From: an uncultured Planctomycetaceae bacterium
Lineage (GTDB): Bacteria; Planctomycetota; Planctomycetia; Planctomycetales; Planctomycetaceae
Assembly: GCA_913031625.1 (NCBI GenBank)
Contig: CAJWGB010000020.1
Coordinates: 1 to 39,003 of the forward strand
Reading direction: 5' to 3'
DNA: 39,003 nucleotides
A program made the translations under genes and the position numbers. Shown here piece after piece: positions 6,900-38,759 of the stretch. Within the stretch, counting starts at the first letter, position 1. Each line of letters opens with the position of its first letter. The notes beneath the pieces were generated by a model. It had not been told where the DNA came from. It ran no database searches and saw only the letters and a list, made by a program, of their open reading frames with translations.

Positions 6900-8186
6900 T
6901 TAACCGGGCTGACAATTGGCGAAGTTCCATCCTGCCGGGATGTGAGCTCCCTTTTTGAGCACGACAATTCCGTCACGCACGACCACATGATCGTAGTCTG
7001 CGTCGCCGGCGGGAGCGTCGCTTGCCACAATTTTTGCGCCCCTTCCGATGTGCACGTTTTTGTCCACGAGTGCACCGTCAATTGTGACGTCGTCTTCAAT
7101 CCCCAGCATGGCTTCCGGCGGAGAATCATCACGGAGATAGTAGTCACCGCCCATGATTACGCTGTTCGAGATTCTTGCGTTGCTGCCAATCTGCGTGCGG
7201 ACACCAATCACACTGTCTTTGATCACGCTGCCCCCAAGGATGACACAGCCGTCCGCAATGAGGCTGTGGTCGACGGTGCAGTTATCGAGCCGTGTGGACG
7301 GCAGGAATCGCGGGTGCGTATAGATCGGGTGCTTCTGATCTCCAAATTTAAACGGCGGATGGACGTCCGCCAGGGCAATATTCGCATCGAAGAACGCCTT
7401 GATTGTTCCAATGTCTTCCCAGTAACCGTCAAACAGGTGAGTCTGAACGTGGTGCTCGCTGATCGCCTTCGGAAAGACGTGCTTGCCGAAGTCTTCATGC
7501 TCGGTGGATTCGAGCAATGAAACCAGCAGGTCACGGTTGAACAGATAGATGCCCATACTGGCAAGATATTCACGTCCGTTGGACTTAATGCCGCGTGCAT
7601 TGATCCAGTTTGCCGGAGTGCGGACCTGCTGCAGCTGTTCTTCTGTCTGAGGCTTTTCAACAAAGTCTTCGACCTTGCCGGACTCTGTCAGCTGCATGAT
7701 GCCAAAGCCACGGGCATCGTCTTCGTTGACTGGGATCGTGGCGATTGTGACGTCTGCGTCAGCCTGTAGATGGGTATTCAACATCTGTCGATAGTCCATC
7801 CGGTACAGCTGATCGCCGGACAGGATCAGCACGTACTCGAGATTCGGCTGTTTGAGGAATCGCATCTGCTTGCGCACTGCGTCAGCGGTACCCTGATACC
7901 AGTTGTCATCACCGGGAGTCTGTTGAGCTGCGAGGATATCGACGAAGCCTCTGCTGAACAGGTCGAACTTATAAGTCTGCCGAATGTGGCGATGCAGGCT
8001 GATCGAATTGAACTGCGTCAGAACGTAAATGCGTTCAATATTGCTGTGGATGCAGTTGGAGATCGGCACATCGATCAGCCGGTATTTTCCACCAATCGGA
8101 ACGGCCGGCTTTGAGCGGAACTGAGTCAACGGCATCAGACGCGTTCCCGCACCTCCGCCGAGAATGAGGCTGATGCAGTGATCCAT
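6900..8186 (-). CDS. glgC: Glucose-1-phosphate adenylyltransferase (ADP-glucose pyrophosphorylase)
   Basis: 428 residues. The enzyme makes ADP-glucose from glucose-1-phosphate and ATP, the committed step of bacterial glycogen synthesis. The N-terminal nucleotidyltransferase domain begins with LGGGAGTRLMPLT (9-21) and the SKPAVPIGGKYRLIDVPISN stretch, followed by LILSGDQLYRMDYRQM, the sugar-phosphate loop EDFVEKP, SMGIYLF and GYWEDIGT. From about residue 310 the C-terminus is a left-handed beta-helix (DNCTVDHSLIADGCVI, SVIGVRTQIGSNARI). Length and motifs match the plant/cyanobacteria-like branch. An AGGAAG lies about 12 bases before the ATG. Divergent from the response regulator gene at 8374 and convergent with csrA. 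Confidence 0.96.
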   Translation of the reverse strand: MDHCISLILGGGAGTRLMPLTQFRSKPAVPIGGKYRLIDVPISNCIHSNIERIYVLTQFNSISLHRHIRQTYKFDLFSRGFVDILAAQQTPGDDNWYQGTADAVRKQMRFLKQPNLEYVLILSGDQLYRMDYRQMLNTHLQADADVTIATIPVNEDDARGFGIMQLTESGKVEDFVEKPQTEEQLQQVRTPANWINARGIKSNGREYLASMGIYLFNRDLLVSLLESTEHEDFGKHVFPKAISEHHVQTHLFDGYWEDIGTIKAFFDANIALADVHPPFKFGDQKHPIYTHPRFLPSTRLDNCTVDHSLIADGCVILGGSVIKDSVIGVRTQIGSNARISNSVIMGGDYYLRDDSPPEAMLGIEDDVTIDGALVDKNVHIGRGAKIVASDAPAGDADYDHVVVRDGIVVLKKGAHIPAGWNFANCQPG

Positions 8187-8373
8187 GGTTTCAACCGCTT
8201 CCTGCTGTGGACGAGCGACATCGCGTCCGGACTGAAATTCTCTGTCTCCTGTGCGAGGCGGACTCTACTTGCGAGTCTCCCAAAAGCAACTCACCCAGGT
8301 GGTCGTTTGTTCCTTCGCCTGATCTGTTGTAACGTCAACGGCTCCTCAACCGTTGGGCAGTCTGGCTGAAACG

Positions 8374-9723
8374 ATGAAGATTCTGATCGTCGACGATGAA
8401 AAAGCGGCGCGTTATGGCATGGCGAAGGCGCTGCGGACATCAGGCCGCGTCATTCTTGAAGCAGAAGATGGAGAGCAGGGACTTGCTGCGATTCGAGACG
8501 AGTCGCCGCACCTTGTATTCCTTGACTTGAACATGCCCGTCCGGGACGGGATGTTCGTGCTTCAGGAACTGCAGAAAGATTCTTCTGTCGTCACTCCCGA
8601 GATCATTGTGGTCACGGCCAATGATGGAGTTAACCATGCGGTGGACTGCATTCGGGCAGGTGCCACTGACTTCATCACAAAACCGTACGACCTCGAGCAC
8701 ATTCGTTCCATTGCACGCCGCTCGGAAGATCGAGTCAGCCTGCAGAACAGGCTGGAGGAAGTGCAGAGCGGAACTGCGGAGTCGGGCCGCTTCGGTGAGA
8801 TGCTTGGAACATGCCGTCCCATGCAGCATCTGTTCCGACAGATCTCCAAGGCGGCCACAACACATCTTCCTGTGCTTGTGCGAGGAGAAAGTGGCACCGG
8901 CAAGGAGTTGGTGGCGCGTGAGCTGCATCGCAGCAGTGAGCGCGCTGACGGGCCATTCATTGCCGTCAACACTGCAGCGATCGCGGAGACTCTTGTCGAG
9001 AGTGAACTCTTCGGCCACGTTCGCGGTGCTTTCACAGGAGCTGATCGAGATCGGGAAGGCGTGTTTCGGCAGGCGGACGGTGGCACTCTGTTTCTGGATG
9101 AAATCGGAGACATGCCGGCAGGTGTCCAGACTCGGCTGTTACGTGTTCTGCAGGAATCCGTTGTTCAGCCCGTCGGCACAGAGCAGACCATCAAAATAGA
9201 TGTACGGATTATCAGCGCCACTCATCAGGATCTGCAGCAGTCGATCGAAGACAAGGTCTTCCGGCAGGACCTCTACTTCCGGCTCAAGGGAATCGAGCTG
9301 TTCATTCCTGCACTGAGAACTCGACAGGAAGACATTCTGCTCCTGGCAAACTCCTTCGTGGACGGTTCTCTCACCCTCTCGCGAGACGCAGTCGCCGCGC
9401 TCGTACAGCACAATTGGCCGGGCAATGTGCGTGAGCTGCGGCAGATGATTCATGCAGCTTCCGCACTCTGTGATGACGGTGTGATTCATGCTTCCGACCT
9501 GGGGCTCGTCGAAGAGCGTTCCTCCGAACTCGGCGAGGGATTTGAAAAGTACTTTGATCTGCCTCTGACTGAAGCTCGCCAACTCCTGGTGGAGGATTTT
9601 GAACGCACCGTGATCGGCCGTGCTTTGAAAACCGAAAATAACAATGTCAGTGCGGCGGCGCGACTGCTCGGAATCCACCGTCAGAGTCTGCAGCAAAAGA
9701 TGAAGCAACTGGGAATTCGATAG
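8374..9723 (+). CDS. Sigma-54-dependent response regulator (NtrC family)
   Basis: 449 residues from ATG at 8374; a TTG at 8353 is in frame but adds only MGSLAET before the canonical receiver start MKILIVDDE. The receiver domain (1-118) has acidic residues D7/D8, phospho-acceptor D51 (LVFLDLNMP), T81 and K103. The AAA+ domain has Walker A GESGTGKE (171-178), the sigma-54 contact loop GAFTGA (218-223) and Walker B GGTLFLDEIGD (236-246). A Fis-type helix-turn-helix closes the chain (NNVSAAARLLGIHRQSLQQK). It activates RNA polymerase-sigma-54 after phosphorylation. No partner kinase is adjacent on this strand. The DUF502 gene follows 52 bases later. Confidence 0.95.
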   Translation: MKILIVDDEKAARYGMAKALRTSGRVILEAEDGEQGLAAIRDESPHLVFLDLNMPVRDGMFVLQELQKDSSVVTPEIIVVTANDGVNHAVDCIRAGATDFITKPYDLEHIRSIARRSEDRVSLQNRLEEVQSGTAESGRFGEMLGTCRPMQHLFRQISKAATTHLPVLVRGESGTGKELVARELHRSSERADGPFIAVNTAAIAETLVESELFGHVRGAFTGADRDREGVFRQADGGTLFLDEIGDMPAGVQTRLLRVLQESVVQPVGTEQTIKIDVRIISATHQDLQQSIEDKVFRQDLYFRLKGIELFIPALRTRQEDILLLANSFVDGSLTLSRDAVAALVQHNWPGNVRELRQMIHAASALCDDGVIHASDLGLVEERSSELGEGFEKYFDLPLTEARQLLVEDFERTVIGRALKTENNNVSAAARLLGIHRQSLQQKMKQLGIR

Positions 9724-9775
9724 CCGGCACCTCAAGAGCCGGTTCGGCCCCCATTAAGGCACACAGGAGTCGGAT

Positions 9776-10405
9776 ATGAAGGAACAGATCGGACGTTCCA
9801 TCGGTTTTTTTCGAGCGACTGCACTTGGGGGACTGTTGTTCCTGCTGCCAGTTGCCGTGATCATTGGCATCCTCGGCTACGTGTATAGTTTTGCGGCGGC
9901 TCTCTACGACCCCGTCAAGGATCAACTGCAGGATGTTGTCCCCATCCGGGACGCCACGGGCATCGCGCTGTTGTTTGCGGCCGTCGTGGGAGTGTTGCTG
10001 GCGCTCTGCTTTGTCGCCGGACTGTTTGCTCACCGAGCAATCGGCCGCCGGTTTGCGCAACTGCTGGAAAAGTACCTGACTACTCTGTTCCCCAGGTATG
10101 CCATCTATCGAGACCTGCTTGCAGGAAACATCGGCGGCACTCAGGACGTTCCCTCTCTGAAGCCGGTCACAGTGAAGATGCCTGATGGTCGCCGAATTGC
10201 ATTTGAATCGGACAGACTGCCTGACGGAAGCGTGATGGTCTTCTTCCCCGGAGCACCCGACCCCTGGATTGGCACTGTCGGAATCGTTGAAGCTGACAGG
10301 GTAGAACTTCTGGATGTTGCATTCAACGATATTGTTGGTCTGCTGGAACAACTTGGCCGGGGTGCCAGCGAGCAACACGGAACAGCTCTGACCCGGACTG
10401 CATAG
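9776..10405 (+). CDS. DUF502 family inner-membrane protein
   Basis: 209 residues, normal for DUF502 (PF04367). Two membrane segments are clear: about 17-40 (LGGLLFLLPVAVIIGILGYV) and 62-87 (TGIALLFAAVVGVLLALCF). A cytosolic or periplasmic C-terminal domain follows, with the family motifs FPRYAIYRDL, PDGRRIAFES and VMVFFPGAPDPWIGTVGIV. ATG at 9776 follows AGGAG at 7 bases. Function unknown; members are implicated only loosely in envelope processes. It is probably cotranscribed with the response regulator upstream, given the 52-base gap and shared strand. Confidence 0.88.
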   Translation: MKEQIGRSIGFFRATALGGLLFLLPVAVIIGILGYVYSFAAALYDPVKDQLQDVVPIRDATGIALLFAAVVGVLLALCFVAGLFAHRAIGRRFAQLLEKYLTTLFPRYAIYRDLLAGNIGGTQDVPSLKPVTVKMPDGRRIAFESDRLPDGSVMVFFPGAPDPWIGTVGIVEADRVELLDVAFNDIVGLLEQLGRGASEQHGTALTRTA

Positions 10406-19387: not shown

Positions 19388-19882
19388 TTAGATTTCGAAA
19401 CTGAGCGCAGCTTCGAGAGGCTGTACTGCTTCCTCATTCCTCGCAAAGTAGCGGTTGTCTGCCACCCAGTCTTCCCGCGTATACCGGATCACAGATGTAT
19501 CTGTTTCCTGCACTTCCAGGCTTTCGAGGCGGAACCCCATCTGCGTGATCTCAGTGAACAGCTTGTGGCAGAGGTTCTCAACACTGGTGGGGCCGTCAAA
19601 GACGCACAATCGCAGTTTTTCTCCGGTTCGCTCCATATGCATCCGAAGTGATTCGTAAAGCGGGTCCTTCGCATGAATCAGCATGCTGTGGTCATAACGT
19701 TCCTTCAGCCATGGTTCGATCTTCGCGTCAAAGTCTCCGAAGAGAGTGGAAATGTCACCCTCTCGCTCGACCTCAAAAGCACACCGAACACCATATCGGT
19801 GTCCGTGCAGGTTACTGCACTTGTCGTTGAGTGTCTCGTTGCGGTGTGCCGCATAGAACTTGTATTGTTTCTGAATGATCAC
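19388..19882 (-). CDS. queD: 6-pyruvoyl-tetrahydropterin synthase / 6-carboxytetrahydropterin synthase family
   Basis: 164 residues. Zinc ligands H13 (FYAAHRNE), H26 and H28 (NLHGHRY) are present. The QueD-type catalytic Cys is C22 in the CxxxHGH motif. The D64-H65 pair (ERYDHSML), PTSVENL (98-104) and E126 (VQETDTS) complete the active site. The family converts dihydroneopterin triphosphate to carboxytetrahydropterin (queuosine/7-deazaguanine route) or pyruvoyl-tetrahydropterin. The Cys favours the QueD reaction, but the long insertion between 65 and 95 is unlike E. coli QueD, so a biopterin role is possible. It follows folE by 65 bases on the same strand, supplying the substrate-product pair. 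Confidence 0.9.
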   Translation of the reverse strand: MIIQKQYKFYAAHRNETLNDKCSNLHGHRYGVRCAFEVEREGDISTLFGDFDAKIEPWLKERYDHSMLIHAKDPLYESLRMHMERTGEKLRLCVFDGPTSVENLCHKLFTEITQMGFRLESLEVQETDTSVIRYTREDWVADNRYFARNEEAVQPLEAALSFEI

Positions 19883-19947: not shown

Positions 19948-20607
19948 TCACTGGTTGATGAGCGACATGAGTTCAGCGCGACTGGCAGCATCTGAACGAA
20001 AGCTGCCGCGCATGGAACTTGTCACAGTCGCACTGCCCGGCTTTCTGATCCCGCGAATCGACATACAGGAGTGCTCCGCTTTCACAATCACCCCGACAGC
20101 GGCGCTCTGCAGACTGTTTTCGATCAAGTCGGCGATCGTCTGTGTCATTCGCTCCTGCACCTGAGGACGACGGGAGACTTCCTCCACAACGCGAGCCAGT
20201 TTGCTGAGTCCGGTCACTCGGCCGTTTGGAATGTACGCCACATGTGCGACTCCCCGGAATGGCAGCAGGTGATGTTCGCACATGCTCGTGAATTCAATGT
20301 CTCGCACGAGGACAATTTCGTCGTAGGATTCTTCGAAGGTGACATCGAGATGCCGCGCCGGGTCAAGATGCAGTCCCTGAAACATCTCGGCATACATCTT
20401 TGCCACTCGACGAGGTGTCTCCAGAAGTCCGTCGCGATTCGGGTCTTCGCCGACAGCAGTAAGAATCGTACGAACGGCCGCCTTGATGGCTTCGTGATCT
20501 ACGGGAGTTCCCGGCGACTTAGGCTGTCTGCCAGTATCGCGGACACATTCATGATCATCAGAAGAGTGATCGGTTAGCAGATCAACGTCCTGACAGGCGA
20601 TAGACAT
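19948..20607 (-). CDS. folE: GTP cyclohydrolase I
   Basis: 219 residues. FolE opens the purine ring of GTP to give dihydroneopterin triphosphate for folate, biopterin and queuosine synthesis. The catalytic zinc ligands C110, H113 (MCEHHLLPF) and C181 (EHSCMSIRG) are in place. [18 protein letters not shown] (54-71), [10 protein letters not shown] (133-142) and RPQVQERMT (147-155) are the standard signatures. The first 35 residues are a variable, polar extension. ATG at 20607 follows AAGG at about 9 bases. It sits directly upstream of queD on the same strand, consistent with a pterin or 7-deazapurine operon. Confidence 0.97.
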
Positions 20608-20730
20608 ACTTGGGGACCTTTTGTGCAGAGGTGGGTACGTTTTTACGAGCAGGTTGTAGAGGGCCCCTTCACTGTGTCCACTGAAAAGCGGTGCTCAGGT
20701 GTTCTACGGCGTCAGGGCCGACCTCTGAAA

Positions 20731-21837
20731 TTAGTCCGCAGGCAGCATGGCCCAAAGTTCAGGGCGACCTACATTGCAATGAACGGACCTTGCAAGTGGC
20801 CCGCCGAATGCCCAGGTCAGATAGAGTGCAAGCCGCGCCACGTTCCACGCGCCGGGAGCGTCTTCTGACTCCATCGAAAGCGCGTGGGCACGACGCTCCG
20901 GGCAGGGAATCGGCTGGAAAACGGACTCGGCGACCGCACTGCGGGCCGTGTCCTGTTCGGTCAGTTGATCGACTGCTTCGATCGCATCGTTAAGCGCCGA
21001 AGGACTCGTTTGCTGCGTAAGCAGTCGGTCAAGTGCGAACACACTTCTTCGACTGAACGCAGGAAGCACCAACAGACCAACGAACGACAACAACAAAAAC
21101 CACAGGAATATAGTCGCCAGGTCAGCCACAGAGTTGACTATTCCGCCGGCCAACAGAATTGCGGCCGAAAAGCAGGTAATGTTCCATAACATCGCGCCGA
21201 TAATCCCGCGGAACCTGGCTCCACTGGACAGTGCCGCTTCCCGCCGCCGTAACATGACTTTGAGCTGATCCGGATTGAGAGTCTGCTGCCAGCTCGACGG
21301 CACAAGAATCGATTCAAGACCGGGTAAACCTGTCACTCCCCCGACAAACCGCCGATCGTTGCTGGTCACGAACGCCACCAGCTTTCCTGATCGTTTGGCC
21401 CGGACATTGGAAGTCATTAGACGCCACAGCAGTTCCTGTCCTGCCAGCAATCCCAGTTGCAGGACCGCAAACAGTGGAATCAACCACGGAGCCCCAACAG
21501 CTCGCCCGATCTGCAAATAGAAGAAGAGAGCGAATGTATGCATCAACAGCTGACTTACGATCGATCTCGACCACTGCCTGACCCATGCACGCGGATGTGG
21601 GGGAGTCGACTCAAAGGCAGCCGGAATCACAAGCCCGCCGATGATGTCGAACGGCAGAATCAACAACGCAACGAACATCAAAAACACCGTCAACGCCACC
21701 AGTTCCTGAACGGGGTCGATCGCCCGAACCGGCAACAGTTGCGAAATTGCGTCCGTCGACAGGAGTGCGACTGCTGTCAGCACCAATGACCCTACGCATC
21801 CCATACCTGTCAGTAATCTGGCTTTAGCCTGTGTCAT
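20731..21837 (-). CDS. Multi-pass membrane protein resembling an M48 peptidase without its zinc site
   Basis: 368 residues from ATG at 21837, preceded by AGGAGG at 9 bases; the 30-base longer start at 21867 would place that ribosome site inside the gene. Membrane segments lie near 12-30, 45-72, 93-111, 117-135, 212-234 and 238-260. Between 152 and 206 the order LVAFVTSNDRRFVGGVTGLPG then LNPDQLKVMLRRREAAL follows the M48 (HtpX/Ste24) layout, but the position of HExxH is RREAAL. Further on, FSRRSVFALDR (261-271) matches the M48 third-ligand motif SRxxExxADR with Glu replaced by Val266 while Asp270-Arg271 remain. It is therefore probably a non-catalytic relative. This is a pattern reading, not an alignment. 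Gap to folE is 123 bases, same strand. Confidence 0.6.
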   Translation of the reverse strand: MTQAKARLLTGMGCVGSLVLTAVALLSTDAISQLLPVRAIDPVQELVALTVFLMFVALLILPFDIIGGLVIPAAFESTPPHPRAWVRQWSRSIVSQLLMHTFALFFYLQIGRAVGAPWLIPLFAVLQLGLLAGQELLWRLMTSNVRAKRSGKLVAFVTSNDRRFVGGVTGLPGLESILVPSSWQQTLNPDQLKVMLRRREAALSSGARFRGIIGAMLWNITCFSAAILLAGGIVNSVADLATIFLWFLLLSFVGLLVLPAFSRRSVFALDRLLTQQTSPSALNDAIEAVDQLTEQDTARSAVAESVFQPIPCPERRAHALSMESEDAPGAWNVARLALYLTWAFGGPLARSVHCNVGRPELWAMLPAD

Positions 21838-22019
21838 CGTATTCGTCCTCCTGTCGCCTGACCGCATTCAGGGTGATCAGATAACTCGATTTGGCGACAT
21901 TCTGACGATACTGAGGTGCAGACAGCCCCTTGAAGGTAGACATGTCAGGTCTAAACATCAGGCATGACGCCCCTTTTTTGGACGCATCTCATCCCTGTAA
22001 TATAAAGAGGCTGGTCGAA

Positions 22020-22772: not shown

Positions 22773-23564
22773 CTACCACTCCGGCTGGCAGACAGGGCAG
22801 GCAAACACTTTCCGGGCGGCCAGGCTCCATGACTCGATGGGAGTATCGCATGATTTGCAGAAGTCCTGCTTATAAACAAGCAGACGTTCCTGTCGGTTCA
22901 TACGACTGCGCGGTTTTCCAACCGCCTCCGGGTCCGCGATGATGATCCTGTTGTACCGCTTGCCAATTCGGAGCAGCTTCACTGTCAGGTCCCAGAGCTC
23001 ATCGAATTCCTGCCGCGAGAGTGTGTTGGCTTTGCGTTCCGGGTGGATGTGCAGCAGATGCAGAATCTCGGAGCGATACACGTTGCCAACTCCCGCGATT
23101 ACGCTCTGATTCATGAGGAGCGTGCCAATCGGCGATCGGCTTCGCCGAATTCTGTCCCATGCCTTTTCGACGTTCGCATCATCTCTCAATGGGTCCACAC
23201 CCAACCGCTCCGTCAGCCTTTCTACTTCGGCCGCAGACAGAATCTCACAGGCGGTTGGGCCGTTGAGATCAAATGACTTGTTTTCCCCAATCACTCGGAG
23301 TCGAACGGCCCCCCGAGGGGCGGGTGGGGGACTCTTGTGCCGACGGAATTTGCCGTACAGTCCAAGGTGTATGTGCAGTGTTTTGCCATCCCAGTCGTAA
23401 AACAGATGCTTTCCGTGAGCATCCACAGTGGTCAGAGTTCGGCCGTGCAGAATTTTGGCTCCAGCGCGAAATCGGCCCTGTGGTGACGAAACGGCGAGAC
23501 ACTGGCCTGCGAAGTCACGGTTGTGATCGGCGGCGACGCGATGAACGGTATGGCCTTCCGGCAT
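22773..23564 (-). CDS. Endonuclease VIII-type DNA glycosylase (Fpg/Nei family)
   Basis: 263 residues. The start MPEGHTVHR gives the catalytic Pro2 and Glu3 after Met removal, and Lys52 (HGKHL) is the conserved beta-hairpin Lys. The helix-two-turn-helix is MNQSVIAGVGNVYRSEIL (151-168). A C-terminal zinc finger has C236, C239, C256 and C259 (FCKSCDTP then FACPVCQPEW). The protein removes oxidised bases and nicks the abasic site by beta/delta-elimination. MPEGHT rather than MPELPEV points to the Nei/Nei2 branch, not MutM. A single-gene unit, convergent with the SDR gene and divergent from the small-gene operon at 23811. Confidence 0.93.
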   Translation of the reverse strand: MPEGHTVHRVAADHNRDFAGQCLAVSSPQGRFRAGAKILHGRTLTTVDAHGKHLFYDWDGKTLHIHLGLYGKFRRHKSPPPAPRGAVRLRVIGENKSFDLNGPTACEILSAAEVERLTERLGVDPLRDDANVEKAWDRIRRSRSPIGTLLMNQSVIAGVGNVYRSEILHLLHIHPERKANTLSRQEFDELWDLTVKLLRIGKRYNRIIIADPEAVGKPRSRMNRQERLLVYKQDFCKSCDTPIESWSLAARKVFACPVCQPEW

Positions 23565-23810
23565 TTTTTCCCCGGTAACTCAACTGTCTGATCACTGCAG
23601 TCGGCTTTACCTCTGCAAACTCCAGGATGATCCTAGTCGGTTTCACCGCGACGTCCAATTTCGAAGGTGCCACACCAAATGCGACCGCTCTTCGAGAGCC
23701 GTTTCAGGCCCACACTCAGATGTAGTTGAGTGGCCGGTCATTCGAACGTGTCTAGAACCCCTGCACCGCTGGGCACAGTGCTCAGCCGTTTTCAAACTGG
23801 AGAAATGATC

Positions 23811-24014
23811 ATGAGCAATAACGAAACACATACATGGCCGGAGCTGGCAATTGGGCTGTACGATCAGTTGACTCAGCGTAACGCTGAAATCGACTATAAC
23901 TTCGAGAACCTCGAAGTCGCCATTCCGAGTAGCACGGACCCTGCTGCCAAACGAGCGGAATGGAAGCTGAACGGGGGAATTCGAGTGACGACTCGTAACG
24001 GCGGTGCTTCGTGA
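23811..24014 (+). CDS. Small unrecognised protein, first gene of a four-gene run
   Basis: 67 residues from ATG at 23811, which has GGAG at 8 bases; the ATG at 23805 is too close to it. I do not recognise the family. It begins MSNNETHTWPELAIGLYDQL, a probable amphipathic helix with Trp, followed by an acidic strand region (IDYNFENLEVAIP) and a basic C-terminus (WKLNGGIRVTTRNG). It is acidic overall, with no signal peptide or membrane segment. Its TGA overlaps the GTG start of the next gene (GTGA at 24011-24014), so the two are translationally coupled and probably act together. Confidence 0.75.
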   Translation: MSNNETHTWPELAIGLYDQLTQRNAEIDYNFENLEVAIPSSTDPAAKRAEWKLNGGIRVTTRNGGAS

Positions 24015-24316
24015 CTTCGGCGCTGAATGTCGAAGGCGAAGTCACGATGACCTGTGCGAGCCAGCAGGTCATCGTGAGAGGCCTCGGGGACACCGTTGAA
24101 ATTGAGGTCCCGGGACTGTTGTGGGCACTTCGCCGATTGGGCGTGATGCGCTCGGCAGCAGCCAGCCGCTTCCTCAGTCAGATTCACTGCAAGTCAGACG
24201 TGTCAGTCACATTCCGCACACGGCGTCGTCGGCTAATCACCATCCGGCCAGACGAAGTAAGCCGGTTGGCCGGATGGTTGGGCCTCCCCTCAGTCCGTGT
24301 TCATCTTTTTGGCTGA
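24011..24316 (+). CDS. Small basic unrecognised protein, coupled to the 67-residue gene
   Basis: 101 residues, starting at GTG 24011 within the stop of the previous gene. An in-frame ATG at 24047 is an alternative start giving 89 residues. Not recognised. It has a strand-rich N-terminus (QQVIVRGLGDTVEIEVPG), a helix with LLWALRRLGVMRSAAASRF, and a very basic stretch (FRTRRRRLITIRP) before a short C-terminal domain. The net positive charge contrasts with the acidic partner. It ends 25 bases before the SDR-DUF2867 gene on the same strand, consistent with one operon. Confidence 0.65.
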   Translation: MTSALNVEGEVTMTCASQQVIVRGLGDTVEIEVPGLLWALRRLGVMRSAAASRFLSQIHCKSDVSVTFRTRRRRLITIRPDEVSRLAGWLGLPSVRVHLFG

Positions 24317-24341
24317 GTGCAACTTTCCCGGAGGCAGACAC

Positions 24342-25880
24342 GTGAGCAAACCGCACAACATTCTGATCACCGGTGGAACCGGGTACGTGGGAGGGCGTTT
24401 GATTCCGCTGGTCCACGATCGAGACAACGTGCGACTCCGCCTGATGGCTAGAAAGCCGGAATACCTGCGGGCACGGGTGGGGGAGTCGCTCGAGATCGTC
24501 GCTGGGGATGTCAGCAGGCCGGACACTCTTTCCGCAGCTTTGGAGGGAGTTGAGACGGCCTTTTACCTCATTCATTCGATGGGGAGCGGCAGCGACTTCG
24601 AAGATGAGGACCGAATTGCTGCCCGTAATTTTGCTGAGGCGGCTCGCAAAGCCGGTGTCAGGAGAATTATTTATCTCGGTGGACTTGGAAACGAACAGGA
24701 GTGCCTCTCGAAACATCTCCGCAGTCGTCAGGAGGTGGGTGAAGTTCTGCAGGAATCCGGCGCTCAGGTCATTGAATTTCGCGCATCCATTATCATTGGA
24801 TCGGGAAGCCTGTCCTTTGAGTTGATTCGGGCGCTTGTTCGAAAACTACCTGTGATGATTTGTCCGAAATGGGTCACCACGACCGCCCAGCCAATCGCCA
24901 TCGAGGATGTTCTGCAATACCTTCTGCAAGCCATTGATCATGAGTCCAGCGAAAGTTCGGTCTATGAGATTGGGGGGCCTGACGAAGTTTCGTATCAGGA
25001 CCTGATGCGTGAGTATGCTCGTCAGCGCGGCCTGCGTCGCGTCATGATTCCTGTCCCATTCCTGTCGGCTCGGCTTTCAAGTCTGTGGCTCGGCCTCGTC
25101 ACGCCGGTGTACGCGAACATTGGCCGCAAACTTGTGGAGAGCCTTCGTAACCCGACCGTGGTGACGAACTCAGCGGCCCTTGAAGCTTTCCCAATCCGCC
25201 CGATGTCGTTGAGCAGTTCTATTGAACGAGCCCTTCAGAATGAAGATCAGCAGTTTGCCAGCACGCGGTGGCAGGATGCTGTCTCATCCTCCATGGCTCC
25301 TACGCGTTACGGTGGCGAGCAGTTTGGAAGTCGACTGGTTGACTGCCGTACGATTTCAGTCCCCCTAACGCCCAGTCAGGCATTTACTCCGATTCAGCGG
25401 ATTGGTGGCAGGACGGGGTGGTACTACGGCAACTGGCTTTGGCGCCTGCGTGGATTTCTCGATCTGCTGGTCGGTGGCCCCGGGCTGCGTCGCGGACGAA
25501 GACATCCAGTCAACCTGAGTGTTGGAGACACGCTCGACTGCTGGCGAGTGGAGAAGGTTGACGTACCACACAAGCTTCGACTCAAGGCAGAAATGCGACT
25601 TCCCGGTCGTGCGTGGCTTGAGTTCGTTGTGACCCGGAGTGACGACGGCTGTGAGATCACACAGACAGCAATGTTTGATCCTGTGGGGCTGTTTGGTCTC
25701 TGTTACTGGTACTCAATCTGGCCGTTGCATCAGTTCATCTTCGCAGGAATGCTGCGAAATATTTCGGAGGCAGCAATAGAACAGGCGGTTGCTGAATCTG
25801 TTGAGGAAGACAATGAGCCAGCCCCTCAAATGGTGGCCGCGCACTCTGAGCCGGAACCCGCCCGCCCACCACTTGTTTAA
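24342..25880 (+). CDS. SDR-family NAD(P)-binding protein fused to DUF2867 domain
   Basis: 512 residues from GTG at 24342, chosen for GGAGG at 7 bases and the start (M)SKPHNILITGGTGYVGG. Residues 7-20 are the NAD(P)-binding glycine motif, followed by RLRLMARKPEYLRARV, the strand IVAGDVSRPDTL and AFYLIHSMGSG. This is the atypical SDR (COG0702/NmrA-like) core to about 300. The C-terminal part (about 335-495) is the DUF2867 domain, with VPLTPSQAFTPIQRIGG, GWYYGNWLWRLRGFLDLL, LDCWRVEKVD and a membrane-leaning end LFGLCYWYSIWPLHQFIF. Such fusions are widespread, but their reaction is not established to my knowledge. Third gene of a four-gene plus-strand run, next to a SOUP gene. Confidence 0.88.
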   Translation: MSKPHNILITGGTGYVGGRLIPLVHDRDNVRLRLMARKPEYLRARVGESLEIVAGDVSRPDTLSAALEGVETAFYLIHSMGSGSDFEDEDRIAARNFAEAARKAGVRRIIYLGGLGNEQECLSKHLRSRQEVGEVLQESGAQVIEFRASIIIGSGSLSFELIRALVRKLPVMICPKWVTTTAQPIAIEDVLQYLLQAIDHESSESSVYEIGGPDEVSYQDLMREYARQRGLRRVMIPVPFLSARLSSLWLGLVTPVYANIGRKLVESLRNPTVVTNSAALEAFPIRPMSLSSSIERALQNEDQQFASTRWQDAVSSSMAPTRYGGEQFGSRLVDCRTISVPLTPSQAFTPIQRIGGRTGWYYGNWLWRLRGFLDLLVGGPGLRRGRRHPVNLSVGDTLDCWRVEKVDVPHKLRLKAEMRLPGRAWLEFVVTRSDDGCEITQTAMFDPVGLFGLCYWYSIWPLHQFIFAGMLRNISEAAIEQAVAESVEEDNEPAPQMVAAHSEPEPARPPLV

Positions 25881-25927
25881 CTTTGGCCACTGGCTGTGTC
25901 CCTTCCATGTTCTGGATGGAGATTATG

Positions 25928-26539
25928 ATGAGTTCGAAAACCATGCTGCCAGTTCTCGGCGGAATTCTGTTGGCTGCTGTCTTGATTGGATACCGTTTGA
26001 CATCTCGTACGGCATATGAAAATGCAGCTTACGAATTGGAACTGGTCGAAGGGGACTTCGAGATTCGACGCTATCCTGAACTTACCCTCGCCTCAACTCC
26101 GATGCAGGGGTCCCGCGTCGGAGAGGATGGAAGCTTCATGCGGCTCTTTGGTTACATCAGCGGAGAAAACGCTCGTCAGCAGAAGATCGCCATGACTGTC
26201 CCGGTATTCATGCAGTCAGATTCTGAAGAAGCAGGCAGCATGCAGTTCGTCGTTCCCACAGAAGTGGCTGAGAACGGCGCGCCCGAACCCTCGGCGGACA
26301 ATGTCAGTCTCGCGACTCGTCCGGCCGGGCGTTACGCGGTTGTTCGCTTTGCTGGCGACCTGAATGACTCCACTTACAGCGTCCAGCACGAGCGACTGGA
26401 GACATGGATGGAGTCTCTGAACCTGTCAGCCGTCACAGGCTCTTTTTCCTCGGCAGGTTACGACCCTCCATGGACTCCTGGGTTTCTGCGACGCAACGAA
26501 GTACTGGTTCGGATCGAAAACTCCGAAACAAACCCGTGA
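25928..26539 (+). CDS. SOUP-family haem/tetrapyrrole-binding protein, membrane-anchored
   Basis: 203 residues from the second of two adjacent ATGs (25928), 6 bases after GGAG. Residues 5-22 form an N-terminal anchor or signal (TMLPVLGGILLAAVLIGY). The SOUP signature follows: YELELVEGDFEIRRYPE (35-51), FMRLFGYISGENARQQKIAMT (70-90), then VPV. The family binds haem or other tetrapyrroles, and in bacteria its role is unclear. The C-terminus with YDPPWTPGFLRRNEVLVRIE is typical. It follows the SDR-DUF2867 gene by 47 bases and closes the four-gene run. No terminator is evident right after the stop. Confidence 0.88.
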   Translation: MSSKTMLPVLGGILLAAVLIGYRLTSRTAYENAAYELELVEGDFEIRRYPELTLASTPMQGSRVGEDGSFMRLFGYISGENARQQKIAMTVPVFMQSDSEEAGSMQFVVPTEVAENGAPEPSADNVSLATRPAGRYAVVRFAGDLNDSTYSVQHERLETWMESLNLSAVTGSFSSAGYDPPWTPGFLRRNEVLVRIENSETNP

Positions 26540-37442: not shown

Positions 37443-37528
37443 GCCGGAGTGGTGGAATTGGCAGACACGTCGGATTCAAAATCCGATGGGGTTAACACCC
37501 CGTGCGGGTTCGAGTCCCGCCTCCGGTA
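37443..37528 (+). tRNA. tRNA-Leu (anticodon CAA)
   Basis: 86 bases with a long variable arm as expected for Leu. The acceptor stem GCCGGAG/CTCCGGT pairs, with one G-U, and is followed by discriminator A. The anticodon stem TCGGA/TCCGA closes the 7-base loop TTCAAAA, giving CAA (codon UUG). The T arm is GCGGGTTCGAGTCCCGC. CCA is not encoded. Its 3' half overlaps the end of the tyrosine recombinase frame on the opposite strand, the usual mark of an integration site. Confidence 0.96.
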
Positions 37529-38759
37529 ATTTGCCAAACGTATTTGAGCCCAAAAAACACTGGTCGCCAGCCATTTTGCTGGCCTTGCCGGTTACCACAT
37601 GTGTTACCACTTTTTGAGGTTTCGCACCGTTTCGCGGATCTTTGTTGCCACCTGTGTTACCACTTTTTGATCCCGGTGTGGGGCGGCTATTGAATGCATC
37701 AAAGTGTCCCTCTGTAATCTGTGCATAGCTGCTACGTTGCACCTTTACACTGTGGCCGATCCATGCCGCAACGACGTGTGCCGGGTGTCCTTCGTCCAGC
37801 CAGTCGGTTTCACAACTAGCCCGCATGTTCTGGAACAACTTTGGCCACGGCACCAACCCTGCGTGATGCAGGATCTTCTTCATAGGTTTATCAAGGTTAC
37901 TGTTTGACGATGAGAATCGTGTGATGATCTTGGTGGCCCCACTAGGTGCATCAGCGTACACGGCATCCAGCAGACCACGGATGTCTCTCAAAGGCACGTA
38001 TCGAACGCCCTTTCCCTCATGGTGTGCGGTCTTGCTGATATTCACTCGCATCTTTCCCTGATCCCAAAGAACATCGTCCCAGGTCAGACTGAAGACTTCC
38101 ATCTTTCGCAGGCCGGCGTAACGCCAAAGAGCGACCATCAAACGCCATTCAGCATCTGGGCAGGCCGTGATGATCTTTGCAGTGTCGTCACGAGTCAAAA
38201 AGTAATCTCGCTTCCTTTTTTCTTTTGTGCTGCTGACCTGAAACTCGAACGGGTTGAATGGAATCAGTCCTCGCCGCCTTGCTGCATTAAAGAAGACCTT
38301 TGCGTTGTCGATATGTTTTCTCTTCCCATTCTCCGCCATAGGCTGCCCTTTCCGGCCAGCGGTCGACTGTCTGATTCGCCGTTTGTCGAGCCATTTTCGG
38401 AATTGGTACCCGTCATCATGGGTAAAGGAATCAACCGGACGATCAGCGTCAAAAACTGTCATCAGAAAACGCTGAGTAGATCGCCAGTTGGCCAGCGTAT
38501 TTGGTTTCGCTGGATCACCTTTAGCGGTGAGCCCCTCTTCTATGTGGTCAGACAGGAATTCACCGAGTGAGACGTTTTTGGTTTCCGGTTCTGGCTCAGC
38601 TGGTTGCCGTGGTTCCACAAGTCCAGCCTTCGCCAGTTTCGCGTGTAACGATTCGCCAATGCCCCCCAGCCATTCCGCGGTTCGGCGGTCAATCGTGCCG
38701 CAGCTGGTCCGTGTTGCCACCAGGCCGCCCGTGACGGCTACCGGTCGGGCCAGCGTCAA
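37476..38759 (-). CDS. Tyrosine recombinase / integrase, 5' end uncertain
   Basis: Open frame of 427 codons beginning at TTG 38759. The catalytic residues follow the tyrosine recombinase order: R218 (YAGLRKMEV), K243 (ISKTAHH), QNMR with R313 and Q310 at the usual His position, H336 (AWIGHSVKV) and Y345 (SSYAQITE). A SAM-like DNA-binding domain precedes it at about 65-165. The frame stays open upstream for 22 more codons, encoding PPANLLDAGADHAKAKVG, which looks like further integrase N-terminus, then meets TGA; no ATG or GTG is available. So the gene is probably 5'-truncated or degraded. The last 16 codons (EAGLEPARGVNPIGF) are antisense to tRNA-Leu, so translation may end earlier in the undisturbed host sequence. 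Confidence 0.85.
   Translation of the reverse strand: MTLARPVAVTGGLVATRTSCGTIDRRTAEWLGGIGESLHAKLAKAGLVEPRQPAEPEPETKNVSLGEFLSDHIEEGLTAKGDPAKPNTLANWRSTQRFLMTVFDADRPVDSFTHDDGYQFRKWLDKRRIRQSTAGRKGQPMAENGKRKHIDNAKVFFNAARRRGLIPFNPFEFQVSSTKEKRKRDYFLTRDDTAKIITACPDAEWRLMVALWRYAGLRKMEVFSLTWDDVLWDQGKMRVNISKTAHHEGKGVRYVPLRDIRGLLDAVYADAPSGATKIITRFSSSNSNLDKPMKKILHHAGLVPWPKLFQNMRASCETDWLDEGHPAHVVAAWIGHSVKVQRSSYAQITEGHFDAFNSRPTPGSKSGNTGGNKDPRNGAKPQKVVTHVVTGKASKMAGDQCFLGSNTFGKLPEAGLEPARGVNPIGF
37488..37528. other. Probable attachment site (att) in the 3' half of tRNA-Leu
   Basis: The 3' half of tRNA-Leu (variable arm, T arm, acceptor) is the usual integration target of this integrase class, and the integrase gene ends inside it. 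The matching direct repeat that would mark the far end of the element is not in this window, so the exact core is inferred. Confidence 0.55.

Follow-up and report, generated by a model that had tools for sequence, protein, structure and literature searches.

A conserved pair of small genes and a promoter-like element in a candidate photo-oxidative-stress operon of a planctomycete

We examined a 39,003-nt stretch of DNA (the window), contig 20 of the 6.7-Mb genome of an uncultured Planctomycetaceae bacterium (genome G000), focusing on a plus-strand run of four genes: two that encode small proteins, here called P1 and P2, a third encoding a short-chain dehydrogenase/reductase (SDR) fused to DUF2867, and a fourth encoding a SOUL-domain protein. 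We found that P1 and P2 form a conserved gene pair without a family name, that this pair is an optional companion of SDR-DUF2867 proteins, and that a promoter element shared with other genes is well supported upstream of P1. On balance, we read the run as probably one photo-oxidative-stress operon with P1–P2 as an accessory complex and a factor of the sigma-70 family as its likely driver.

23731–23757, plus strand: promoter-like element TGGCC-N14-GTCTAGAA, 80 nt before the P1 start
23811–24014, plus strand: P1, acidic protein of 67 aa, predicted helix-strand-strand, unnamed family
24011–24316, plus strand: P2, basic, fast-evolving protein of 101 aa, GTG start, predicted beta-beta-beta-alpha-alpha-beta-beta
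24342–25880, plus strand: SDR-DUF2867 (gene 3), NAD(P)-binding NmrA-like SDR fused to DUF2867 (PF13460 + PF11066)
25928–26539, plus strand: SOUL-domain protein (PF04832), ATG start at 25928, N-terminal hydrophobic stretch

The four-gene run, as laid out here, is real, and the spacing given in a preliminary description of the window is borne out by the coordinates. P1 and P2 share GTGA at 24011–24014, a 4-base overlap; 25 bases separate P2 from the SDR-DUF2867 gene, which has GGAGG ahead of its GTG start; and 47 bases separate that gene from the SOUL gene, counted from the ATG at 25928 (alternative SOUL starts at 25907 and 25883 are possible).

P1 and P2 form a conserved gene pair

With a P1 alignment as query, a GTDB-wide scan yielded 380 stretches that encode relatives, and we retained the best 80; a single-sequence genome scan with P1 found no relative. 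Adding 8 of another 13 loci gave a set of 88 loci, or 86 after removal of two duplicates. The kept relatives come from Planctomycetota, Acidobacteriota, Bacteroidota, Verrucomicrobiota, Vampirovibrio-like bacteria, an Armatimonadota metagenome-assembled genome (MAG), SAR324, haloarchaea and others; from planctomycetes to haloarchaea, relatives share 45–72% identity with the window P1, and the nearest named ones belong to Fuerstiella sp. MAGs. P1 is present in 12 of 58 related genomes and in 18 of 392 Planctomycetota genomes, the window's own being counted in both.

Directly behind P1 and on the same strand, we found a P2-like gene (E < 1e-3) in 76 of the 88 loci (74/86 without the two duplicates), with no other match to the P2 profile at E < 1e-3 within those loci. 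Because this profile, grown from five P2 sequences, admitted members only if they were adjacent to P1, we tested 15 further loci outside it. A P2 match was present in 12 of the 15, or in 9 of 12 once three duplicates of training loci were dropped; among the unmatched loci, a short P2-like frame was visible by eye in two (L158, L160) and none could be named in the third (L159). Control stretches, 20 around DUF2867 genes and 20 at fixed positions in P1-bearing genomes, contained P1 in 0/40 cases and P2 below E 0.05 in 0/40. P1–P2 is a conserved pair, and the gene pairing is well supported and beyond chance. The preliminary description had proposed two unknown, coupled small proteins and had named homologues lacking a conserved neighbourhood as one finding that would speak against its proposal; what emerged is this conserved, unnamed pair and, as detailed below, a frequent SDR neighbour.

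The invariant residues of P1 are W, L, A, I, Y, P, G and T, and cysteine occurs in just 2 of 86 sequences. At 40 of 85 loci, its stop codon and a start codon share bases (NTGA). In the window, net charge is −3 for P1 and +6 for P2; more widely, P1 is negative in 70/74 bacterial and 12/12 haloarchaeal sequences, and P2 is positive in 52/59 and 7/11, respectively. Opposite signs were found in 55 of the 70 P1/P2 pairs tested, so the opposite charges pointed out in the preliminary description are the usual state and not a universal one. Most relative pairs tested showed purifying selection on both genes, with P2 evolving faster (dN/dS, for example, 0.25/1.33 and 0.18/1.03 for P2 and 0.12/1.53 for P1; some P2 pairs, at 1.17/1.71, are close to saturation). 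Binding of P1 to P2 is a plausible hypothesis.

Neither window protein belongs to a Pfam or NCBIfam family. The P1 alignment (86 rows) had no convincing match in Pfam (best 0.009) and none in NCBIfam (best 0.032), and the P2 alignment (70 rows) had no convincing match in Pfam (best 0.0013). A PDB sequence search gave nothing for P1 and a best of 0.45 for P2; the sole PADLOC result was an E 0.0085 match of P1 to a TIR effector model, with nothing convincing for the pair. The AlphaFold2 models were weak (pLDDT 62 from 86 sequences for P1; pLDDT 76 from 70 sequences for P2), and Foldseek found no PDB match to them below E 0.2. Among the open-access papers listed in our literature searches (subscription journals were mostly outside the scope), none dealt with the P1–P2 pair or its promoter. 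Candidate P1 fusions were rejected, as the long frames look like P1 frames extended upstream, a potential start codon lying immediately ahead of P1. In Salinigranum, the pair is followed by a third gene (L078:7672–7950) that encodes a weaker P1 paralogue (E 3e-5) with no Pfam match.

A P1 tree (70 columns) placed the 12 haloarchaeal sequences on one side of one branch (97/89), a grouping that would be consistent with one transfer, the tree being unrooted. No P1 match was found in 50,697 phage records; among 72,556 plasmid records, the window protein matched none and an archaeal query gave one remote match, annotated as a hypothetical protein. A mobile-element origin of the pair was set aside, there being no phage match and no plasmid match for the window protein. 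Two genomes have two P1 copies each, G007 (contigs C80, C115) and G029 (contigs C260, C339), and each G007 copy has its own P2 and SDR-DUF2867. Two loci, L037 and L040, are labelled Candidatus Kuenenia stuttgartiensis, and their P1 groups with Fuerstiella-like ones; MAG labels or bins may be wrong here.

The pair is an optional companion of SDR-DUF2867 proteins

Gene 3 qualifies as an SDR-DUF2867 fusion protein by curated cut-offs (PF13460, 63.5 bits, cut-off 27.2; PF11066, 120.5 bits, cut-off 27). An SDR like it is present in the P1 stretch of 32 of the 86 loci, and 23 of those 32 lie directly behind the pair, on the same strand and within 500 nt of P1. Across Planctomycetota, DUF2867 was found in 17 of 18 P1-bearing genomes versus 77 of 374 P1-lacking ones (Fisher p 1.3e-10, a value inflated by relatedness), and for 13 of the 18 P1 genes the distance to DUF2867 is at most 2.5 kb. 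In all, 94 of the 392 genomes have DUF2867 and only 18 have P1; P1–P2 is an optional companion of SDR-DUF2867 proteins.

The suggestion that the four genes make up one module did not hold, as the run is not a fixed arrangement. The co-occurrence expected of the small genes was found in part, with the SDR at the frequency just given, SOUL in the stretch of only 2/86 other loci, and haloarchaeal pairs without DUF2867.

One locus joins gene 3 to a further window gene. In L058 (Phycisphaerales), an 878-residue frame directly behind the pair (7468–10104) encodes SDR-DUF2867 followed by a membrane protein; its SDR-DUF2867 part is 45% identical to gene 3, and its membrane part is 31% identical over 391 columns to the window protein listed below, 2.5 kb upstream, which this natural fusion ties to gene 3.

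20731–21867, minus strand: membrane protein of the family fused to SDR-DUF2867 in L058, homologues in 6/86 P1 loci

A shared promoter element precedes P1

Aligning the sequences upstream of P1 from seven genus-like loci revealed one well-conserved block, TGGCC followed by 14 bases and GTCTAGAA. We found this element 75–84 nt before P1 in nine loci from the same genus as the window or its close kin; four copies are exact (the window, L035, L037, L038) and five have two mismatches (L024, L034, L036, L039, L040). Five genomes (38 Mb) contain five exact 13-base matches: before P1 in G000, G002 and G004, before a SOUL gene in G004, and before a PQQ-type propeller gene in G000. Five of the 24 one-mismatch sites lie upstream of SOUL in G007, fasciclin in G000, and propeller genes in G002 (one) and G004 (two). 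The window's genome has the exact element twice only; the copy away from P1, before the PQQ-type beta-propeller gene, is at G000:C27:10931–10957 (L241:3932–3958). The element is rarer than a reversed control (10 versus 22 one-mismatch sites in G000; genomes G000, G002, G004, G005 and G007 were examined), which looks as if its sites, or CTAG, were avoided elsewhere.

We then scored upstream regions with a position weight matrix (PWM) built from the P1 sites alone, for which the 99th percentile of shuffled upstream sequences is 11.0. Scores of at least 11 occurred before 9 of 53 labelled-family genes versus 2 of 97 other genes (shuffles, 0.9%). The nine are made up of fasciclin genes, which reach this score in 5/5 loci (in one case from a mechanical start), two sigma genes, a DUF3050 gene and the window Nei/Fpg gene; the window FolE gene would be a tenth only by a wider locus list, and the tally was kept at 9 labelled and 2 unlabelled genes. 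The membrane protein gene at 20731–21867 has no site of its own in the window (score 2.7), and a terminator and sigma-70 consensus scan around the operon gave no excess over shuffles. We regard the shared promoter element as well supported.

The SOUL gene is linked by promoter and not by layout

The window SOUL protein scores 143.7 bits to PF04832 (cut-off 27), and this domain over its cut-off is its likeness to the SOUL/HBP haem-binding family; it differs from that family in its hydrophobic N-terminus, a single stretch read from the sequence, and in its stress-type operon, and haem binding is putative. Its gene is part of the pair's operon in the window only and, among the two other loci that have SOUL, adjoins the pair in one (L037, divergent). 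Among SOUL relatives, the promoter element is present in G002 (2 mismatches), G004 (exact) and G007 (1 mismatch). In G002, the gene lies 6 kb from P1 with its own element copy ~89 nt before its start; in G007, a photolyase frame of 160 residues (PF00875, 37.6 bits) comes directly after it, and the gene divergent on its other side is photolyase-like by reading, yet has no Pfam match. SOUL is tied to the pair by a common promoter and not by layout.

Sigma-70 family genes lie beside element-bearing genes

In L022 and L023, P1 has a divergently oriented gene of the sigma-70 family beside it; the SOUL genes of G002 and G004 (loci L231 and L035 between them) have one as well, and related sigma genes precede fasciclin–FolE–PTPS in G004 and G006. 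The candidate sigma factors measure 288–351 aa; the two scanned have regions 2 and 4, with best scores to RpoS- and RpoD-type models. Of nine sigma genes, three score 9.2 to 15.3, with sites at −65 to −67. These positions suggest that a sigma factor of this kind may read the element. In seven loci (L237:2289–4149, L231, L234, L235, L238, L242, L035), a sigma-70 gene is followed by a gene for a 326–354-residue protein; the one tested, that of L237, contains a SelL-related redox domain.

Repair and pterin genes in the window and photolyases at other P1 loci

On the minus strand upstream of P1, the window encodes further genes and weaker copies of the element:

23631–23657, minus strand: weaker element copy, 93 nt before Nei/Fpg, divergent from P1, PWM score 15.1
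22773–23564, minus strand: Fpg/Nei-type DNA glycosylase (oxidised-base repair; PF06831, PF01149), probable regulon member
20654–20680, minus strand: weak element copy, 73 nt before FolE, PWM score 11.4, just over the shuffles' 99th percentile
19948–20607, minus strand: GTP cyclohydrolase I (FolE; PF01227, 258.3 bits), possible regulon member
19388–19882, minus strand: 6-pyruvoyl-tetrahydropterin synthase (PTPS) family gene (PF01242, 71.8 bits), behind FolE

The only other Nei gene scored (L242) has no good site (4.2). FolE homologues lie ~4 kb from P1 in L034 and L036 and behind sigma and fasciclin genes in L232 and L239, with the same FolE-then-PTPS order in all four. A photolyase of any of three types is present in 21 of 86 P1 stretches, 15 of them within 2.5 kb of P1, and Pfam confirmed photolyase in every representative and doubtful case scanned; the fixed-position stretches had photolyase in 0/20. 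These neighbour counts depend on our choice of BLAST cut-offs and cover up to 7 kb on each side, less where contigs end; gene starts in the loci are mechanical, and several loci are MAG contigs. Other company among the 86 loci (CrtI 3, FolE 2, PTPS 2, Fpg/Nei 2) is too sparse to weigh much. The open-access literature yielded no paper with DUF2867 and photolyase together. Long frames near P1 in L048 (5773–8541) and L032 (9470–12727) combine a photolyase domain (PF00875) with an amine-oxidase-like flavoprotein domain (PF01593).

Farther along the window, a phage-integrase family gene (PF00589, 42.6 bits; 37476–38759, minus strand) ends inside tRNA-Leu (CAA) at 37443–37528, which looks like an integration site.

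Discussion

The Rhodobacter sphaeroides RpoE–ChrR singlet-oxygen regulon includes photolyase, SDR, fasciclin, GTP cyclohydrolase and a further sigma factor, according to PMC7074977, and its gene content overlaps in part with that around the element described here, where fasciclin, FolE and SDR-DUF2867 genes carry or follow the element. Since fasciclin–FolE–PTPS, SDR, SOUL and the oxidised-base glycosylase lie behind one element, we read this set as a planctomycete counterpart. The earlier hint of a redox or tetrapyrrole/lipid-linked process fares well as a redox or photo-oxidative theme, backed by the shared promoter and the neighbours. The regulatory parts differ: the ChrR cupin (PF12973) has no match in G000, with matches at E ≤ 0.001 in 4/8 genus genomes and over cut-off in 2/8, and the candidate sigma factor is RpoS-/RpoD-like with regions 2 and 4. 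TGGCC-N14-GTCTAGAA also differs from the ECF11-type promoter of RpoE–ChrR, a consensus that was not itself searched for. Neither P1–P2 nor SOUL appears in the RpoE–ChrR regulon table of PMC7074977, in the part accessible.

We infer a single transcript, P1–P2 binding, the substrate, the SOUL ligand, the identity of the sigma factor and light as the trigger, as follows. The run would be transcribed from the promoter at 23731–23757 as part of a photo-oxidative (light plus oxygen) regulon of this genus, probably under a sigma-70 family factor, unlike RpoE–ChrR. P1 and P2 would be translated together and would most likely form, by joint folding, a small complex without enzymatic activity, which in bacteria may usually serve the SDR-DUF2867 enzyme at membranes. 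The role of that enzyme would be the reduction or removal, at the membrane, of a hydrophobic compound (lipid- or quinone-like) that has been oxidised. The SOUL protein, which is membrane-anchored and whose gene has joined the operon in this genome, may bind free tetrapyrrole or haem, a photosensitiser. P1–P2 would also have its own function, since archaea keep the pair alone; that it supports SDR-DUF2867 at membranes while having this function is speculation on our part.

Several observations weigh against this account. For the element, most other one-mismatch sites lie inside genes or before nothing recognisable; a rank test over all labelled genes is borderline (Mann–Whitney p 0.05), partly because operon-internal genes need no promoter; no photolyase gene among those scored has a good site itself (−2.3 to 2.6); and the remaining sigma genes, including those beside P1, score 5.0 or less. 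For SOUL, two of the three element-bearing genes were found via the element itself, and a fourth (L037) has no good site (7.9). For the light link, photolyase in a phylum sample was near 1/15 P1 loci and 4/20 DUF2867-only loci, so that the connection with light may lie more with SDR-DUF2867 than with P1–P2. For the SDR link, the SDRs of L053, L097 and L108 match weakly, and the two tested (L097, L108) have the SDR part without DUF2867. Haloarchaeal P1 stretches have no photolyase match, and DUF2867 was found in 0/8 searchable haloarchaeal P1 genomes, being present in 10/23 genomes of that search. As haloarchaeal pairs lack both DUF2867 and photolyase matches, P1–P2 must act on its own there.

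Of the alternatives, the one that survives best, rather unlikely in our judgement, is that the operon acts in membrane or lipid metabolism in general when the cell meets envelope or redox stress, with light uninvolved. An NmrA-like SDR would suit such a role, as would its DUF2867 part, which weakly resembles lipid-binding polyketide-cyclase folds (PF10604, E 0.045), the membrane-protein fusion in L058, the SelL-related domain behind one sigma gene and the scarcity of photolyase in the phylum sample. The photolyases in the wider set of loci argue for light, CrtI, FolE, PTPS and Fpg/Nei counts being small, as does a promoter common to fasciclin–FolE–PTPS and SOUL, a set overlapping the singlet-oxygen regulon.

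We doubt somewhat more that the element works as an operator, bound by a repressor or activator (of the LitR/CarH type, for instance), and not as a sigma promoter. The Pseudomonas LitR/CarH light regulon (pmlR1/pplR) does hold photolyase, short-chain dehydrogenase, FAD-oxidoreductase, folE and a cryptochrome-like protein under a LitR/CarH family regulator, with no P1–P2 in the accessible part of PMC9758184, and the low scores of the sigma genes beside P1 would fit an operator. The element, however, is asymmetric, with two blocks at a fixed 14-base spacing 75–84 nt before the start, as for −35/−10 boxes, and both the sites 65–67 nt before three sigma genes and the sigma genes divergent from P1 and SOUL favour a promoter.

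It is improbable that SOUL is a chance passenger behind SDR-DUF2867: its rarity near the pair and the L037 gene without a good site would allow it, but the relatives in G002, G004 and G007 have the element shortly before their starts. Least likely of all, P1–P2 would be a toxin–antitoxin-like pair parked by chance beside stress genes, as suggested by two small overlapping genes, acidic then basic, a patchy spread over phyla and domains and the double copies in G007 and G029, and opposed by the lack of PADLOC, Pfam or NCBIfam matches of substance, a first, acidic partner strongly conserved across domains while the second drifts, the same enzyme recurring as neighbour, a promoter common to SOUL, fasciclin and propeller genes, and the phage and plasmid searches, with only one remote plasmid match to an archaeal query.

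A wider form of the photo-oxidative reading, which we hold only tentatively, is that P1–P2 is a cross-domain complex of two proteins, shielding membranes or DNA against photo-oxidation and, in planctomycetes, forming the core of a non-ECF-sigma regulon acting through TGGCC-N14-GTCTAGAA. If true, planctomycetes would have their own route to much the same gene set as RpoE–ChrR, built with other regulatory parts. The promoter element offers a direct handle for listing the whole regulon and testing its sigma factor. P1 itself is a 67-residue cross-domain protein, nearly always found with a drifting partner and outside Pfam and NCBIfam families; if our reading holds, P1–P2 would be a missing piece in the sunlight survival of non-phototrophic microbes.

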